A stretch of DNA of 64,000 nucleotides, taken from assembly GCA_019636235.1 (NCBI GenBank), contig JAHBXW010000016.1:1-64000 (forward strand), read 5' to 3'. This document shows positions 27,322 through 60,390 of the stretch, piece by piece. A program made the position numbers and the translations under genes. The notes under the pieces are model-generated. The model was not told the DNA's origin, made no database searches, and saw only the letters and a list, made by a program, of their open reading frames with translations. The DNA comes from Planctomyces sp. GTDB taxonomy: Bacteria > Planctomycetota > Planctomycetia > Planctomycetales > Planctomycetaceae. How positions within the stretch are numbered: the first letter of the stretch is position 1; every line of letters begins with the position of its first letter.

Positions 27322-27350
27322 CACGAGCCGGAAGCGTCAGCGACGGCCGT
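27322..27350 (+). repeat. Dispersed 29-bp repeat (CACGAGCCGGAAGCG type)
   Basis: The 29 bases here (CACGAGCCGGAAGCGTCAGC followed by GACGGCCGT) recur with one mismatch at 57948-57976, 30 kb away. Both copies are intergenic and lie near the larger C-A-B repeats. Confidence 0.85.
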
Positions 27351-28510: not shown

Positions 28511-28551
28511 TTTCCAATTTGCACTTTGGAATTGCCGTTTTGCAATTTGCA
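28511..28551 (+). repeat. A-element (TTTCCAATTTGCAC... type), copy 1
   Basis: An AT-rich 41-base element of the form TTTCCAATTTGCACTTTG, then AATTGCCGTTTTGCAATTTG and CA. It is the first of seven copies in the window (others at 28788, 29000, 59614, 59834, 60083 and 60302). It follows a GACGTCCCCCGCTCGCC lead. Confidence 0.9.
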
Positions 28552-28649
28552 ATGACGGCCGGACAAGTCGGCCGTGGCGCCCGCGCCGGTGAGAATAAAT
28601 TGGTCAATGGTCATCGCGGATTGGTCAATTGTCATTGATTGACACGGGG

Positions 28650-28875
28650 CCCAGCCGACGGCTTAGCCGTCGGACGTGTCGGCCGTACGACGCGAACCGG
28701 CGTCCCCATTCGGCATCGCGATTCCGAGGGATGAACCCCTCGGCTCGCGTCCGGTCGACAACCGACCGTGACGTCCCCCGCTCGCCCTTTCCAATTTGCA
28801 CTTTGCAATTGCCGTTTTGCAATTTGCATTGACGGCCGGAAATCCGGTGGGTCTCGTGCCTCGACCACACCCTAC
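28650..28875 (+). repeat. Complete C-A-B repeat unit, copy 1
   Basis: C part: hairpin CCGACGGC-TTA-GCCGTCGG, then the conserved GTACGACGCGAACCGGCGTC stretch, the hairpin CCGAGGG-ATGAA-CCCCTCGG, and CGGTCG...CGACCG. A part: 28788-28828. B part: GGTGGGTCTCGTGCCTCGAC, CACACCCTAC, ending at 28875. The flank before C (GGTCAATGGTCATCGCGGAT...) is the same as the sequence interrupted by the IS near 58168. Confidence 0.9.
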
Positions 28876-28902
28876 ATCGACTTGACGCCGCGCGAAGCGG
28901 TA

Positions 28903-29087
28903 GGGTGGCGTCGAGCAGGCGAGTCCGGAGGGCGAGCCGCGATGACCCACCATGCGAGCCGCGCGGTCGCCACCGGGGACTGACGTCCCCCGCTCGCCCT
29001 TTCCAATTTGCACTTTGCAATTGCCGTTTTGCAATTTGCATTGACGGCCGGACATCCGGTGGGTCTCGTGCCTCGACCACACCCTAC
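28903..29087 (+). repeat. D-A-B repeat unit
   Basis: GTAGGGTGGCGTCGAGC and the following D stretch (to about 28985) precede an A element at 29000-29040 and a B element ending at 29087. D looks like a partly inverted relative of B (CACACCCTAC versus GTAGGGTGG). Confidence 0.85.
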
Positions 29088-48663: not shown

Positions 48664-49710
48664 ATGCCGACCTTCCCCTTTCCCCCGCCTCGCCCTCCCG
48701 GCGACTGGCAGATCTCCGCGGCCGCGTTCCACACGGTGCTTTTGCTCCTGGGCATTGGCAGCGTCGCCGCCGTCTTTCTTCGCAGCTACCGGCCGGCGCG
48801 CGCGTTCGACCTGCTGGCGTGGATTGGGTTCGGCGGACTGACGTTTCCCGTTGCCGACTTGTCGTACCGGATCGAAGGCTCCCGGACGGTCGCTCTGGGC
48901 ATCATCACTTTCCTGCTGATGGTCTCGCTGGCGGGATTTGTCGTGACGGCGCTGCGGCTGCATTTCGGAGACGCTCGCCCCCGGCTGGGTCTGGCGGCGA
49001 TCTGCCTGCTGAGCTTCACCGGCTTGAGCCTGCTGTTCATGCCGATCGTGCCTGAGGCCCGCGAGCCAGCGCGCCGCACGGTCTGCAAACACAATCTGCA
49101 TCAGTTGGGCTTCGCGCTGCATGTCTACGCCGATGTGTTCGGCGGCCTGCCCGCGCCCGTCATCACGGACGACGGCCCGCCGCGGTCGTGGCGCGTCGAA
49201 GTCCTGCCCTTTGCCGACGGCGGCGCGCTTCGAGATCAATACGACGACTCGCTTCCCTGGGACGCCCTCGAAAATCTGGAACTCGCGAGCAGGACCGCTC
49301 CGGTTTTCGTCTGCCCCAGCAATCGCAACCCCAAAGACGACCAGGGGCGGCGCTATGCCGACTTCCTGGCCGTGACCGGCGCGGGGTCGGTCTTCGACAA
49401 TCCGATCCGTCTCTCGTTCCCCAACGTCCCCGACGGCGCGTCCCACACGATCCTGTTGATCGAAAGCAGCGGCCAGCAGGTCGTGTGGACCGAACCGCGC
49501 GATGCGGACATCGGCGTCCTGCCGATCGAGGTGAACGCGGACGGGCCGCGCCCCGGCGCTTCCAACGGCATCGCGTCGTCGTATCATACCGGCGGATTCC
49601 ATGCGACGATGGCGGACGGCTCGGTCAAGCTCATCTCTGACACGATCGACAGAAACGTGCTCCGCGCCCTACTGACGGCCAACGGCGGCGAACCGCTGCC
49701 GGAGTTCTGA
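48664..49710 (+). CDS. DUF1559 protein with N-terminal multi-helix membrane region (twin 1)
   Basis: The 348-aa product starts MPTFPFPPPRPPGDWQISAA, with GGAGCGGGACC before the ATG. Instead of the usual prepilin N-terminus there are four hydrophobic helices in residues 20-122. HNLHQLGFALHVYADVFGG, PPRSWRVEVLPF, FVCPSNRNPKDDQG and HTILLIESSGQQVVWTEPRD, then YHTGGFHATMADGSVKLIS, form the DUF1559 (SBP_bac_10) domain that normally follows a type IV pilin-like leader. The C-terminal domain is probably extracytoplasmic. It is the first of a tandem pair of equal length. Function unknown. Confidence 0.88.
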   Translation: MPTFPFPPPRPPGDWQISAAAFHTVLLLLGIGSVAAVFLRSYRPARAFDLLAWIGFGGLTFPVADLSYRIEGSRTVALGIITFLLMVSLAGFVVTALRLHFGDARPRLGLAAICLLSFTGLSLLFMPIVPEAREPARRTVCKHNLHQLGFALHVYADVFGGLPAPVITDDGPPRSWRVEVLPFADGGALRDQYDDSLPWDALENLELASRTAPVFVCPSNRNPKDDQGRRYADFLAVTGAGSVFDNPIRLSFPNVPDGASHTILLIESSGQQVVWTEPRDADIGVLPIEVNADGPRPGASNGIASSYHTGGFHATMADGSVKLISDTIDRNVLRALLTANGGEPLPEF

Positions 49711-49789: not shown

Positions 49790-50836
49790 ATGCTGGAATC
49801 GTTTCCCTTTCCGCCGCCCAATCCTGAAATCTGGCGAAACTCCCTGGCCGCGTTTCAGTTCATCCTTGCGGTCCTCGGCGTCGCATGCATCGCGGCGCTC
49901 ATCCGCCGGCTCTGGACGCCAGTGCGGAAACTCGACCTGCTAGCGTGGTTTGCAATCGGAGGCGTGTGCGTTGCGGCGAAGACGCTGGCGCATCGGGTCG
50001 ACGGAAACACGCACGACACGCTGAACTTCGTGTCATTCCTCCTGACTATCTCTGCTGTCGCGTTTGTCATGACGCTGCTGCGATTGTGCAGCGACGACGA
50101 CCATCCGCGGCTTCGGGTTGGAGTCGTTTGTCTGATCAGTGTGGCGGGGTGGAGCGTCATTCACCTGGAGGCGACTTCGAGTCGCATCCCGGCGGCGAGA
50201 ACTAACTGCAGAAACATGCAGCTCAACGTGGACTACGCGCTTCGCGACCATGCGAAGGCCTTCGGCGAACTGCCCCCCGCCGTGACACAGGACGGCGGCC
50301 CGCCGCGATCGTGGCGCGTCGAACTTCTGCCCTTCCTGGAAAGCGGCAAGCTGAGGGAGCGCTATGTCGACTCCCTGTCGTGGGACGCTCCAGCCAACCT
50401 CGAATTCGCCCAACGGGACATGCAGGTCTTTTTCTGTCCCAACAATCGCAACCCCAAAGACGACCAGGGACGGCGCTTCGCCGACTACCTCGCCGTCACC
50501 GGTACGGGATCGGTATTCGACGACGCGATCCGACCCATATTTGCTCGCGTCCCCGACGGTTCGTCGAACACGATCCTGCTGATCGAAAGCAGCGGCCAGC
50601 AGGTCGTGTGGACGGAACCGCGCGACGCGGACATCGGCGTCCTGCCGATCGAAGTGAACGCGAACGGGCCGCGCCCCGGCGCTTCCAACGGCATCGCGTC
50701 GTCGTATCACGGCCACGGATTCAACGCGATGTTCGCGGGGGGGAACGCCAGGTATCTCAGCTCGCAGATCGATCGCGACGTTCTCCTCGCTCTGCTGACA
50801 GCCAACGGCGGAGAATCCGTGCCGCCAGACTTTTGA
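49790..50836 (+). CDS. DUF1559 protein with N-terminal multi-helix membrane region (twin 2)
   Basis: The 348-aa product starts MLESFPFPPPNPEIWRNSLAAFQFILAVL, from an ATG 79 bases after the twin-1 stop. It has the same layout: four helices in the N-terminal third, then NMQLNVDYALRDHAKAFGEL, PPRSWRVELLPF, FFCPNNRNPKDDQG, NTILLIESSGQQVVWTEPRD, and YHGHGFNAMFAGGNARYLS. Domain identity with twin 1 is high in the C-terminal half and much lower in the membrane part. As in twin 1, the usual prepilin N-terminus is replaced by the multi-helix region. Function unknown. Confidence 0.87.
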   Translation: MLESFPFPPPNPEIWRNSLAAFQFILAVLGVACIAALIRRLWTPVRKLDLLAWFAIGGVCVAAKTLAHRVDGNTHDTLNFVSFLLTISAVAFVMTLLRLCSDDDHPRLRVGVVCLISVAGWSVIHLEATSSRIPAARTNCRNMQLNVDYALRDHAKAFGELPPAVTQDGGPPRSWRVELLPFLESGKLRERYVDSLSWDAPANLEFAQRDMQVFFCPNNRNPKDDQGRRFADYLAVTGTGSVFDDAIRPIFARVPDGSSNTILLIESSGQQVVWTEPRDADIGVLPIEVNANGPRPGASNGIASSYHGHGFNAMFAGGNARYLSSQIDRDVLLALLTANGGESVPPDF

Positions 50837-57872: not shown

Positions 57873-58162
57873 AGTGCGGGATCATTGGTCTCATGGATTG
57901 ACGCCGGTCCCAGCCGACGGCTTCGCCGTCGGGCGCGGTTCGCGGCACACGAGCCGGATGCGTCAGCGACGGCCGTGTTCAGGGCCGTTGGGTGGCGTCG
58001 AGCCGGGCAAGCCCGCAGGGCGAGCCGGCGGCGACCCACCGATTCGCGCGCCTCGATCCGGAAGCGATAACGCCCGGCGATTGAGTTCCCGGGGCGCCCC
58101 GCGCAGAACGAAACACGGCCGGGCCGGTGAGAAAGGATTGGTCAATGGTCATCGCGGATTGG
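57873..58162 (+). repeat. Degenerate repeat cluster before the IS (partial C, 29-bp and D elements)
   Basis: Contains a partial C element with hairpin CCGACGGC-TTC-GCCGTCGG (57913-57931), the 29-bp repeat copy (57948-57976), and a D-like stretch GGGTGGCGTCGAGCCGGGC (57990-58008). It ends with the GGTCAATGGTCATCGCGGAT lead that the IS interrupts. No gene is seen. Confidence 0.8.
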
Positions 58163-58167
58163 TCAAT
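58163..58167. repeat. Target site duplication, left copy (TCAAT)
   Basis: TCAAT directly abuts the IS left end; the same five bases abut the right end at 59449-59453. Confidence 0.9.
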
Positions 58168-58185
58168 CAGTAGTTCTCAGTCCGT
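58168..58185 (+). repeat. IS left inverted repeat
   Basis: CAGTAGTTCTCAGTCCGT, pairing with CAGTAGTTCCAAGTCGGT read inward from the right end (three mismatches). Confidence 0.9.
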
Positions 58186-58189
58186 CTGT

Positions 58190-59356
58190 CTACGGCGTCT
58201 GAGTGGAAGGTGTTGAGCCGTCGTGGAATAAGGCGACAACCTGCCCGGCCAGCCAGTCGAGCATGCGCCGGAAGCGCAGCCGCCACAGCTCCAGCGTCCG
58301 GTCCACGCCCGACCCCGGGCTCAGGCGCGTCTCGTGAATCCACAGCCACAGATTCCGCAGCATCAGTCCGATCACGAAGAACAGGAGCCGGTGATGCGGA
58401 TCGCGCGTGCAGGTCATGATGCGGGCCTGCCGCTGCTGACGGTAGCTCGTCTCGATCCCGAACCGCTTCCGATACAACTGCCGAATCTCCTGCGCAGATC
58501 CGGACACCCGCCAGCTGCCAAACAGCAGCTTCTGCTGTTTCCGTTTCCCGTCCCTCCGGTTCTTGTGCGTGCGGTAGGCGAGGGACACGTCGATCGTCAC
58601 CGTCCGCTTGCCGTTCCTGAGCGTGTGGACATGCCACCCCGCCTTCTGACGGCGAATCCACCACAACCCGCGTCGCGGACCCTTCTTCTTCGGGGGACGC
58701 CCCCGGAACACGACGGGCATCAGGAACGGAGTCTGACGCGACTGGAGGTACTCCGTCACCGGGACGTTGAAGAACGCCCGATCCAGGAGAATCCGCTTGA
58801 TTTTCAGGCCTCGGGCGTCGATCCGGGCGAACAGCCGCTGGAGTCCCGTCACCAGCGACTCGTGACGCCGGACCCAGGTGGCCGCCAGCGTGTACCGCAT
58901 GCCGCGAGAGACGATGCAGGCGGTGGCGTAAGCGTGAAACCGGCTCGTCCCCTTGGTGGGCTTCCCGTAGTAGAGTTCGTTGGCCGAGCGTTCGGGCTGG
59001 CCGTAATAGGGGACCAGATGCCAGTCGATGGCGATGGTCCAGGCGGCGCGTTTCCAGCGACTGGGAAGCGGGCCGGCCAAGAGGCGGTCGAGCTGGTTCT
59101 CCAGAGCCTTGAGCGTCTTGGGCAGACCCCGGTCCAGCGCGTCGAAGACCGCCTGGCTGGAGGGAGCGTCGGAGAGGTCGCCAGAGGCGGCCCCCAGCGA
59201 CGATGTGCGGGCGGCGGCCCTGAGGATGATGTTCCAGACCACCAGGGCGGTGCACTTCCAGCCGGGCGCCTTGAGGGGCAGAGCTTCCAGGAGCCATTCG
59301 ATCGCCCATTGATGAACGTGGCCCGCAGAGATGGTATGACTCTTCCTTGAACGCAT
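58190..59356 (-). CDS. IS4/ISH3-like DDE transposase
   Basis: The 388-aa product starts MRSRKSHTISAGHVHQWAIE at 59356, behind a strong AAGGAGG site (an upstream ATG at 59386 is out-competed). DDE residues: D in TIAIDWHLVPYYGQ (about 116), D in IKRILLDRAFFN, and E in the YRKRFGIETSYRQQRQARI motif (Y-x6-E style). IMTCTRDPHHRLLFFVIGLM follows. The arrangement is typical of ISH3/IS4-type transposases that cut and paste the element. The frame is intact. Confidence 0.95.
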   Translation of the reverse strand: MRSRKSHTISAGHVHQWAIEWLLEALPLKAPGWKCTALVVWNIILRAAARTSSLGAASGDLSDAPSSQAVFDALDRGLPKTLKALENQLDRLLAGPLPSRWKRAAWTIAIDWHLVPYYGQPERSANELYYGKPTKGTSRFHAYATACIVSRGMRYTLAATWVRRHESLVTGLQRLFARIDARGLKIKRILLDRAFFNVPVTEYLQSRQTPFLMPVVFRGRPPKKKGPRRGLWWIRRQKAGWHVHTLRNGKRTVTIDVSLAYRTHKNRRDGKRKQQKLLFGSWRVSGSAQEIRQLYRKRFGIETSYRQQRQARIMTCTRDPHHRLLFFVIGLMLRNLWLWIHETRLSPGSGVDRTLELWRLRFRRMLDWLAGQVVALFHDGSTPSTQTP

Positions 59357-59430
59357 GGCTCCCTCCTTGGGATGTGTTCGTGACACAAACCAGCCTGAGG
59401 AAGAGCCTTGCGTTCTTCAACCTTCAAGTC

Positions 59431-59448
59431 ACCGACTTGGAACTACTG
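59431..59448 (-). repeat. IS right inverted repeat
   Basis: Read on the minus strand this is CAGTAGTTCCAAGTCGGT, matching the left end. Confidence 0.9.
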
Positions 59449-59453
59449 TCAAT
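59449..59453. repeat. Target site duplication, right copy (TCAAT)
   Basis: TCAAT adjoins the IS right end; see the left copy at 58163-58167. Confidence 0.9.
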
Positions 59454-59478
59454 GGTCATTGAATGACACGAGTCCCAG

Positions 59479-59702
59479 CCGACGGCTTTGCCGTCGGACG
59501 TGTCGGCCGTACGACGCGAACCGGCGTCCCCATTTGGCATCGAAATTCCCGAGGGGGTCAACCCCTCGGCTCGGGTCCGGTCGACAATCGACCGTGATGT
59601 TCCCCGCTCGCCCTTTCCAATTTGCACTTTGCAATTGCCGTTTTGCAATTTGCAAATGGCCGCCGGGCATGCGGTGGGTCTCGTGCCTCGACCACACCCT
59701 AC
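59479..59702 (+). repeat. C-A-B repeat unit, right cluster copy 1
   Basis: Hairpin CCGACGGC-TTT-GCCGTCGG at 59479-59497, second hairpin of CCGAGGGG...CCCCTCGG type, third CGGTCGA-CAA-TCGACCG near 59579-59595, A element 59614-59654, and B element ending at 59702. Confidence 0.9.
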
Positions 59703-59922
59703 GGCCCCTTGCCGTCGGACGTGTCGGCCGTACGACGCGAACCGGCGTCCCCATTTGGCATCGAGATTCCGAGGGGGTAAACCCCTCGGCTCGGGTCCGG
59801 TCGACAACTGACCGTGACGTCCCCCGCTCGTCCCTTCCAGCTTGCACTTTGCAATTGCCGTTTTGCACTTTGCAAATGCCCGCCGGACATGCGGTGGGTC
59901 TCGCGCCTCGACCACACCCTAC
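59703..59922 (+). repeat. C-A-B repeat unit, right cluster copy 2
   Basis: Begins with GCCGTCGGACGTGTCGGCCG, lacks the full first hairpin, keeps the second and third hairpins, A element 59834-59875 (CTTCCAGCTTGCAC variant), and B ending at 59922 with CTCGCGCC instead of CTCGTGCC. Confidence 0.9.
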
Positions 59923-59986: not shown

Positions 59987-60171
59987 CGTGTAGGGTGGCG
60001 TCGAGCCGGCGAGCCCGGAAGGCGAGCCGCGATGACCCACCGGAAAAAGCCGTCCACCGGGGACTGACGTCCTCCGCTCGCCTTTCCAATTTGCAATTTG
60101 CAATTGCCGTTTTGCACTTTGCAAATGCCAGCCGGACATGCGGTGGGTCTCGTGCCTCGACCACACCCTAC
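59987..60171 (+). repeat. D-A-B repeat unit, right cluster
   Basis: The D part (GTGTAGGGTGGCGTCGAGCC and on, about 59985-60070) resembles that at 28903, then A at 60083-60124 and B ending at 60171. Confidence 0.88.
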
Positions 60172-60390
60172 GGCCCTTTGCCGTCTGACGTGTCGGCCGT
60201 ACGACGCGAACCGGCGTCCCCATTTGGCATCGAAATTCCGAGGGGGTCAACCCCTCGGCTCGGGTCCGGTCGACAATCGACCGTGATGTTCCCCACTCGC
60301 GTTTCCAATTTGCAATTTGCAATTGCCGTTCTGCACTTTGCAAATGCCCGCCGGACATGCGGTGGGTCTCGTGCCTCGACCACACCCTAC
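60172..60390 (+). repeat. C-A-B repeat unit, right cluster copy 3
   Basis: Starts GGCCCTTTGCCGTCTGACGT, with the CCGAGGGG...CCCCTCGG hairpin near 60238-60258, the CGGTCGA-CAA-TCGACCG hairpin near 60269-60285, A element 60302-60343, and B ending at 60390. Confidence 0.9.

Follow-up and report, generated by a model that had tools for sequence, protein, structure and literature searches.

An inverted GTAG-REP pair family with attached heptamer and hairpin modules in a Planctomyces genome, and its probable dispersal by a RAYT

The repeat at 28650-28875 raises the question of what kind of element it is and how its copies were spread. The original prediction described it as a C-A-B unit, in which up to three perfect hairpins (C) are followed by an A/T-rich element (A) and an element B, and likened the C hairpins to REP/BIME elements. 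Within the window, i.e. the whole 64-kb stretch of DNA analysed, the seven A and six B copies claimed were all located, in two clusters separated by approximately 30.6 kb, which agrees well with the distance of about 30 kb given previously. Copies of A, an A/T-rich heptamer array forming an imperfect palindrome, lie on the + strand at 28514..28552, 28791..28828, 29003..29040, 59617..59655, 59838..59875, 60086..60124 and 60305..60343. Those of B, an inverted REP on the - strand, are situated at 28842..28875, 29054..29087, 59669..59702, 59889..59922, 60138..60171 and 60357..60390. Searching the source genome (5.6 Mb, 45 contigs) with 28624-28875 as query returned 60 places at E<=0.001, far above chance, so that the further copies expected elsewhere do exist; A plus B as query returned 44. 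Three further modules, termed D, N and T, had been overlooked in the family as first described, where only A, B and C were seen. A separate direct repeat of 300 nt in the window (49302-49601 / 50425-50724, 86% identical) is apparently a coding, paralogous stretch.

The key part of the element is B together with its partner D, rather than the C hairpins. Read on the - strand, B has the form GTAGGGTG-x-GGTC-loop-GACCCACC, that is, a GTAG tag and a bulged hairpin GGTG-T-GGTC...GACCCACC. D, which lies outside 28650-28875, is GTAGGGTGG-C-GTC...GACCCACC, with GTAG followed by the hairpin GGTGG-C-GTC...GACCCACC. Folding places a one-base bulge in both hairpins, each located directly behind GTAG, and the 13-mer GTAGGGTGGCGTC of D is found exactly in some B copies. 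B is thus an inverted REP and D its partner, at 28900..28951 (+) in the first cluster, where GTAG and the hairpin are accompanied by an inner hairpin, and at 57987..58039 (+) and 59990..60041 (+) in the second. The tag is present in most of the 37 aligned D copies, and most of the 28 full B copies end in CTAC, matching GTAG on the other strand; 38 B copies in total occur in the stretches fetched around copies. GTAGGGTGGNNTC occurs 39 times in the genome, compared with 1 occurrence for the reversed control. With a covariance model of D, 70 matches were obtained in the source genome and zero in the other congeneric one, and three further genera yielded weak matches only. The pairs of D are formed in 95.6% of cells, as opposed to 24-51% when the partner is slid, while covariation within the genome is weak, with two pairs changed on both sides, a value reached by 18 of 500 shuffles.

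The arrangement of the modules was characterised in 376 kb of stretches, chosen because copies lie there. The order N-7-C1-8-T-8-D-45-A-13-B (numbers are spacings in nt) is kept, the distances varying little and the polarity being almost always the same, with GTAG as the outermost left sequence and CTAC as the outermost right; one or more modules are missing from many copies. A lies 45-52 nt behind D in 17 instances and 11-14 nt before B in 20, N and C1 are 7-8 nt apart in 13 of 15, and C2 precedes A by 43-45 nt in four. The two REPs of D-A-B are approximately 97-105 nt apart, below the 150-nt limit for inverted pairs. C2 occupies the slot of D before A, and C3 and D are followed by an identical linker, TGACGTCCCCCGCTCGCC. 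The C block accordingly serves as an alternative to D for the left half, and the unit itself is a pair of inverted REPs that enclose A. D-A-B is therefore a BIME/REPIN-type inverted REP pair whose spacer holds an A/T-rich heptamer hairpin, and complete units in the window are those beginning with D at 28900 and at 59990. On contig C12 (425.7-427.2 kb; L053 3674-5215), two D-A-B units lie 1295 nt apart on either side of a short gene, in what looks like a local duplication.

For the C hairpins, it can be observed that the stems exist, with more variation in their loops, as had been stated; their maintenance through compensation is not borne out. C1 (GCCGACGGC-TTA-GCCGTCGG) is located at 28654..28673, an exact match of the genome pattern, at 57913..57932, left of an insertion sequence in the second cluster, and at 59478..59497, all on the + strand. 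C2 is CCGAGGG-ATGAAC-CCCTCGG at 28724..28743 (+) and CCGAGGGG-loop-CCCCTCGG at 59549..59569 (+), with further copies at 59769..59789 (+) and 60238..60258 (+); C3 is CGGTCG-ACAAC-CGACCG at 28752..28768 (+). The stems quoted were accordingly too long for this copy, in which C2 measures only 7 bp and C3 is shorter; the longer C2 and C3 stems belong to other copies. Nor do all C parts carry an intact C1: of the four in the window, two (59712 and 60166) lack it or retain a truncated form. The exact C1 pattern occurs 26 times in the genome (control 0), and its conservation across 16 copies is 0.97 in stem columns and 0.54 in the loop. The three C hairpins and A fold better than shuffled sequences (C1 z -2.9, C2 z -2.2, C3 z -2.4, A z about -2). 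Among 13-16 copies of C1, C2 and C3, however, no compensatory change was found, the pairs being invariant, G-T or broken, and departures in the stems mostly break pairs or yield G-T. Because the stems are nearly invariant, compensation cannot be claimed, and the selection on structure proposed for C was not upheld by the alignment. No GTAG or CTAC tag was found beside C1, C2 or C3 as part of the module.

Regarding the mobility of the family, the RAYT search proposed earlier was successful. A RAYT gene at C4:57779-58231 matches NCBIfam model NF047646 (177.8 bits, 3.8e-52); the genome search with PF01797 had returned only a second, degenerate RAYT. It has an intact 192-codon frame, and its only PDB match is the E. 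coli TnpA-REP 4er8 (8.7e-35), in alignment with which it keeps the HUH (HxH) motif and Tyr115, the tyrosine in VDY. The gene is flanked by GTAGGGTGGGTCAAGCCTGCGCAGACCCACC...GGTGGGTCTCCTGCGTCGACCCACCCTAC REP doublets, one upstream and two downstream. These represent an unbulged subfamily, R, of the B family, sharing the stem and part of the loop of B; neither D nor B lies next to the gene. R also occurs as an 88-bp doublet, in five identical copies at unrelated sites, with unrelated flanks on both sides. Where R is paired with B, the two stand 15-18 or 44-47 nt apart. The loop CTCGTGCCTCGA is common to B and the right half of this doublet, the bulge base being the main difference between B and the right-hand REP. 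A link of the RAYT to D and B is suggested by this sequence shared with R, and the bulged subfamily may have been moved by the RAYT on C4 or by a lost relative of it. The second RAYT (C2:99450-99884; L081 2376-2990, -) is an unlikely mover, having no GTAG-hairpins beside the gene. Its 205-codon open frame has no ATG at the start and, by eye against 4er8, carries His at the catalytic Tyr position, and it is probably dead. In place of REPs it is flanked by 17-nt inverted arms GTGTGGCACG..., resembling the TIR-flanked Y1 transposases (TIRYT) of the literature.

The REPs flanking RAYT genes were further compared across ten genomes of the family, the source genome and nine others, in which the RAYT genes were read with their flanks. 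In the nine other genomes, GTAG-hairpins stand on both sides of the RAYT in inverted orientation. Their stems, among them GGTGGGT/ACCCACC, GGTGCGT/ACGCACC, GGTGAGT/GCTCACC, GGTCCGC/GCGGACC and GTCAGGC/GCCTGAC, differ in sequence while pairing is kept. One REP was taken from each genome and its stem compared at seven positions; 70 of 70 pairs were standard (G-T allowed), the shuffled mean being 58.3, and none of 20000 shuffles reached 70. It should be noted that the search accepted GTAG-hairpins only if their stem was perfect over 6 bp or more, so the agreement is partly inherent in the method; the differences between the stems of different genomes are not. Read from the sequences, compensatory change is real in the RAYT-flanking REPs and not in C. 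The REP anatomy, the RAYT flanked by REPs of the family and the covarying stems together indicate that the likeness to REP/BIME elements, which had been placed on the C hairpins, is right for B and D; it extends to A by association.

The remaining modules carry no GTAG tag, neither A, N, C nor T. A and N are arrays of 7-base units with significant periodicity at lag 7 (p ~0.001 for N), which is also significant in the A-type arrays of other genera. N is present in 32 copies in the fetched stretches, including one at 28599..28645 (+; ATTGGTC AATGGTC ATCGCGG ATTGGTC AATTGTC...) and one split by an insertion sequence into a left part at 58137..58167 (+) and a right part at 59449-59469, with 58168-59448 between. 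Arrays of the A type are found across many Planctomycetota, frequently paired in inverted orientation about a short spacer, and are multi-copy in genomes G036 and G016. A is palindromic in the source genome, G036 and G016, and palindromy fails as its common trait in G002, G007 and the Rubripirellula and Rhodopirellula examples; heptamer periodicity is therefore the trait common to these arrays. CAATTTG/TTTGCAA heptamer arrays were seen in Rubripirellula, Rhodopirellula and other Planctomycetota (L203-L282), and Rubripirellula obstinata has a multi-copy element with two CAATTTG-type arrays in inverted orientation. T (CACGAGCCGGAAGCGTCAGCGACGGCCGT) is found in the window as an isolated copy at 27322..27350 (+) and in the second cluster at 57948..57976 (+). 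Its palindrome GCCGGAAGCGTNAGCGACGG is multi-copy in G033 (16) and G055 (28), often as inverted pairs approximately 50-100 nt apart, and pairs in L322 (G055) and L324 (G033) have outer CGAGC/GCTCG. T resembles a further REP-like family, one that lacks GTAG. Multiple copies of C1 are also found in G016 (6). Each of A, N, C1 and T is best regarded as a repeat family of its own that has become part of a mosaic.

With respect to genomic context, 61 of 64 clusters are intergenic, and the neighbouring genes, called approximately with a simple codon-usage caller made for this analysis, are unidirectional for 22 clusters, convergent for 19, divergent for 6 and of undetermined orientation for 17. This distribution resembles that in reports on GTAG-REPs (PMC3733652), being extragenic, with divergent contexts rarest here. 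A scan of the first cluster for terminators and promoters gave nothing above shuffles. An ISH3-family insertion sequence at 58168-59448 (-), with its transposase at 58193-59386, ends CAGTAGTTC/GAACTACTG and a 5-base TCAAT duplication, was considered as a mover and rejected, since it is a TCAAT-flanked insertion inside an N module.

Taken together, the repeats are most probably bacterial interspersed mosaic elements (BIMEs) that have a GTAG-type REP family as their basis, its REP pairs being copied by a RAYT. Duplication of old intergenic DNA, spread in tandem or segmentally with gene conversion and with no transposition, would leave traces such as the 219-nt duplication 59612-59830 / 60081-60299 (94%), the order D-A-B-C2-A-B seen again at a contig end and the repeated D-A-B 1295 nt apart on C12. 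As the sole process it is quite unlikely, however, because copies have been located at over 60 intergenic places, unrelated to one another and spread across many contigs, and because the sequences flanking the identical 88-bp doublets are unrelated on either side. If the C-A-B unit were instead a structured RNA or 3' UTR element, serving as a terminator, mRNA stabiliser or small RNA and selected for its RNA fold, this would account for hairpins that fold better than shuffles, for C1 loops that vary with stems that do not, and for most clusters lying downstream of at least one gene. Against these stand the absence of compensatory change in C1, C2 and C3, degenerate copies that break the stems, the free loss of modules among copies and the Rfam search of the window, in which no match exceeded a family's gathering threshold. 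Furthermore, no T-run follows the stems, so the hairpins are not intrinsic terminators, and we regard the RNA reading as very unlikely. An origin of the repeats as MITEs mobilised by a DDE transposase, for instance that of the ISH3-family element, is extremely improbable: the transposase gene does lie inside the second cluster, yet the ends of the element were not seen bounding the repeats, the element interrupts N as an insertion into the repeat, and the REP units end in GTAG/CTAC hairpins.

Two further readings concern the heptamers. The A and N arrays might be primary, as protein-binding or slippage-grown 7-mers alongside which REPs merely settle. Their lag-7 periodicity and the occurrence of A-type arrays in other genera and in many Planctomycetota, often as inverted pairs, would suit this, whereas in the present genome A keeps a fixed register with the REPs that flank it (45 and 13 nt), complete units keep their polarity, and the analysis revealed neither a binder nor a mover of the arrays; we consider it unlikely. 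A likewise unlikely reading is that Planctomycetota carry a separate class of intergenic element, a five-unit A/T-rich heptamer array with a deviant centre, frequently in inverted pairs and spread by a route of its own. In the source genome this array would have been taken up, at a set distance, between the two REPs of a pair mobilised by the RAYT, the composite then moving as a unit.

For the preferred reading of BIMEs copied by a RAYT, the following process is proposed. The working unit would consist of D on the left (GTAG and bulged hairpin) and B on the right (hairpin and CTAC), separated by a fixed spacer with A. The TnpA-REP of the genome is predicted to recognise single-stranded GTAG-hairpins, cutting and rejoining next to them, and would thereby copy the REP pairs of this family into intergenic sites. 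Units once placed may expand to clusters through local duplication and recombination, and N, C1, T and C2/C3 would be joined to them in a set order, the C block taking the place of D in C-A-B. The A, N, C and T modules would then be passengers rather than parts that the RAYT needs; the RAYT does not explain their dispersal.

The family belongs to a known kind of bacterial repeat, of which it is a new example, unusual in the extra modules that it bears. Together with the RAYT it makes up a complete REP-RAYT system in Planctomycetaceae, a group whose GTAG-REPs are on record yet little studied. REP stems that covary between genera, while the RAYTs stay recognisable, are natural material for following co-change of RAYT and REP, and the heptamer modules in fixed register raise the question of whether a REP pair can carry foreign hairpin modules. 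The BIMEs of E. coli consist of REPs in alternating orientation with extra conserved motifs between them and grow into tandem arrays; the architecture is the same here and the motifs differ. The searched literature, itself incomplete, held no description of the composite or of planctomycete CAATTTG heptamer arrays. GTAG-REPs, their dimers with structured spacers and their association with RAYTs have already been described, Planctomycetes included (PMC3733652, PMC6006769, PMC8266576). In common with those families (PMC3733652) are the GTAG tag, a stem of 5-13 bp with a possible bulge, and inverted dimers with a conserved, sometimes structured spacer in intergenic sites between unidirectional or convergent genes; the present sequence family differs in that it was not found in the other genome of the genus, that its spacer holds an A/T-rich heptamer hairpin and that it has extra modules in fixed order. 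With the E. coli REPtron of group 2/subclass 2.2 (PMC8266576, PMC6006769) it shares the kept catalytic residues and REP doublets on both sides of the gene, and the D/B stem bulge is as in group 2 REPs, a group to which the system may belong; the RAYT-adjacent REPs here are unbulged, however, the bulged D and B lying elsewhere in the genome. TAACTGA heptamer arrays of Beggiatoaceae and cyanobacteria, intergenic 7-base units known from several phyla (PMC4679880), have other heptamers, whereas the arrays here comprise five units with a foldable deviant centre in fixed register with REPs. Finally, the REPINs of Pseudomonas fluorescens (PMC3116915) are likewise dispersed inverted REP doublets with a short spacer and some identical copies; in contrast, the present family numbers tens of copies and takes the form of both an 88-bp doublet and a longer mosaic.
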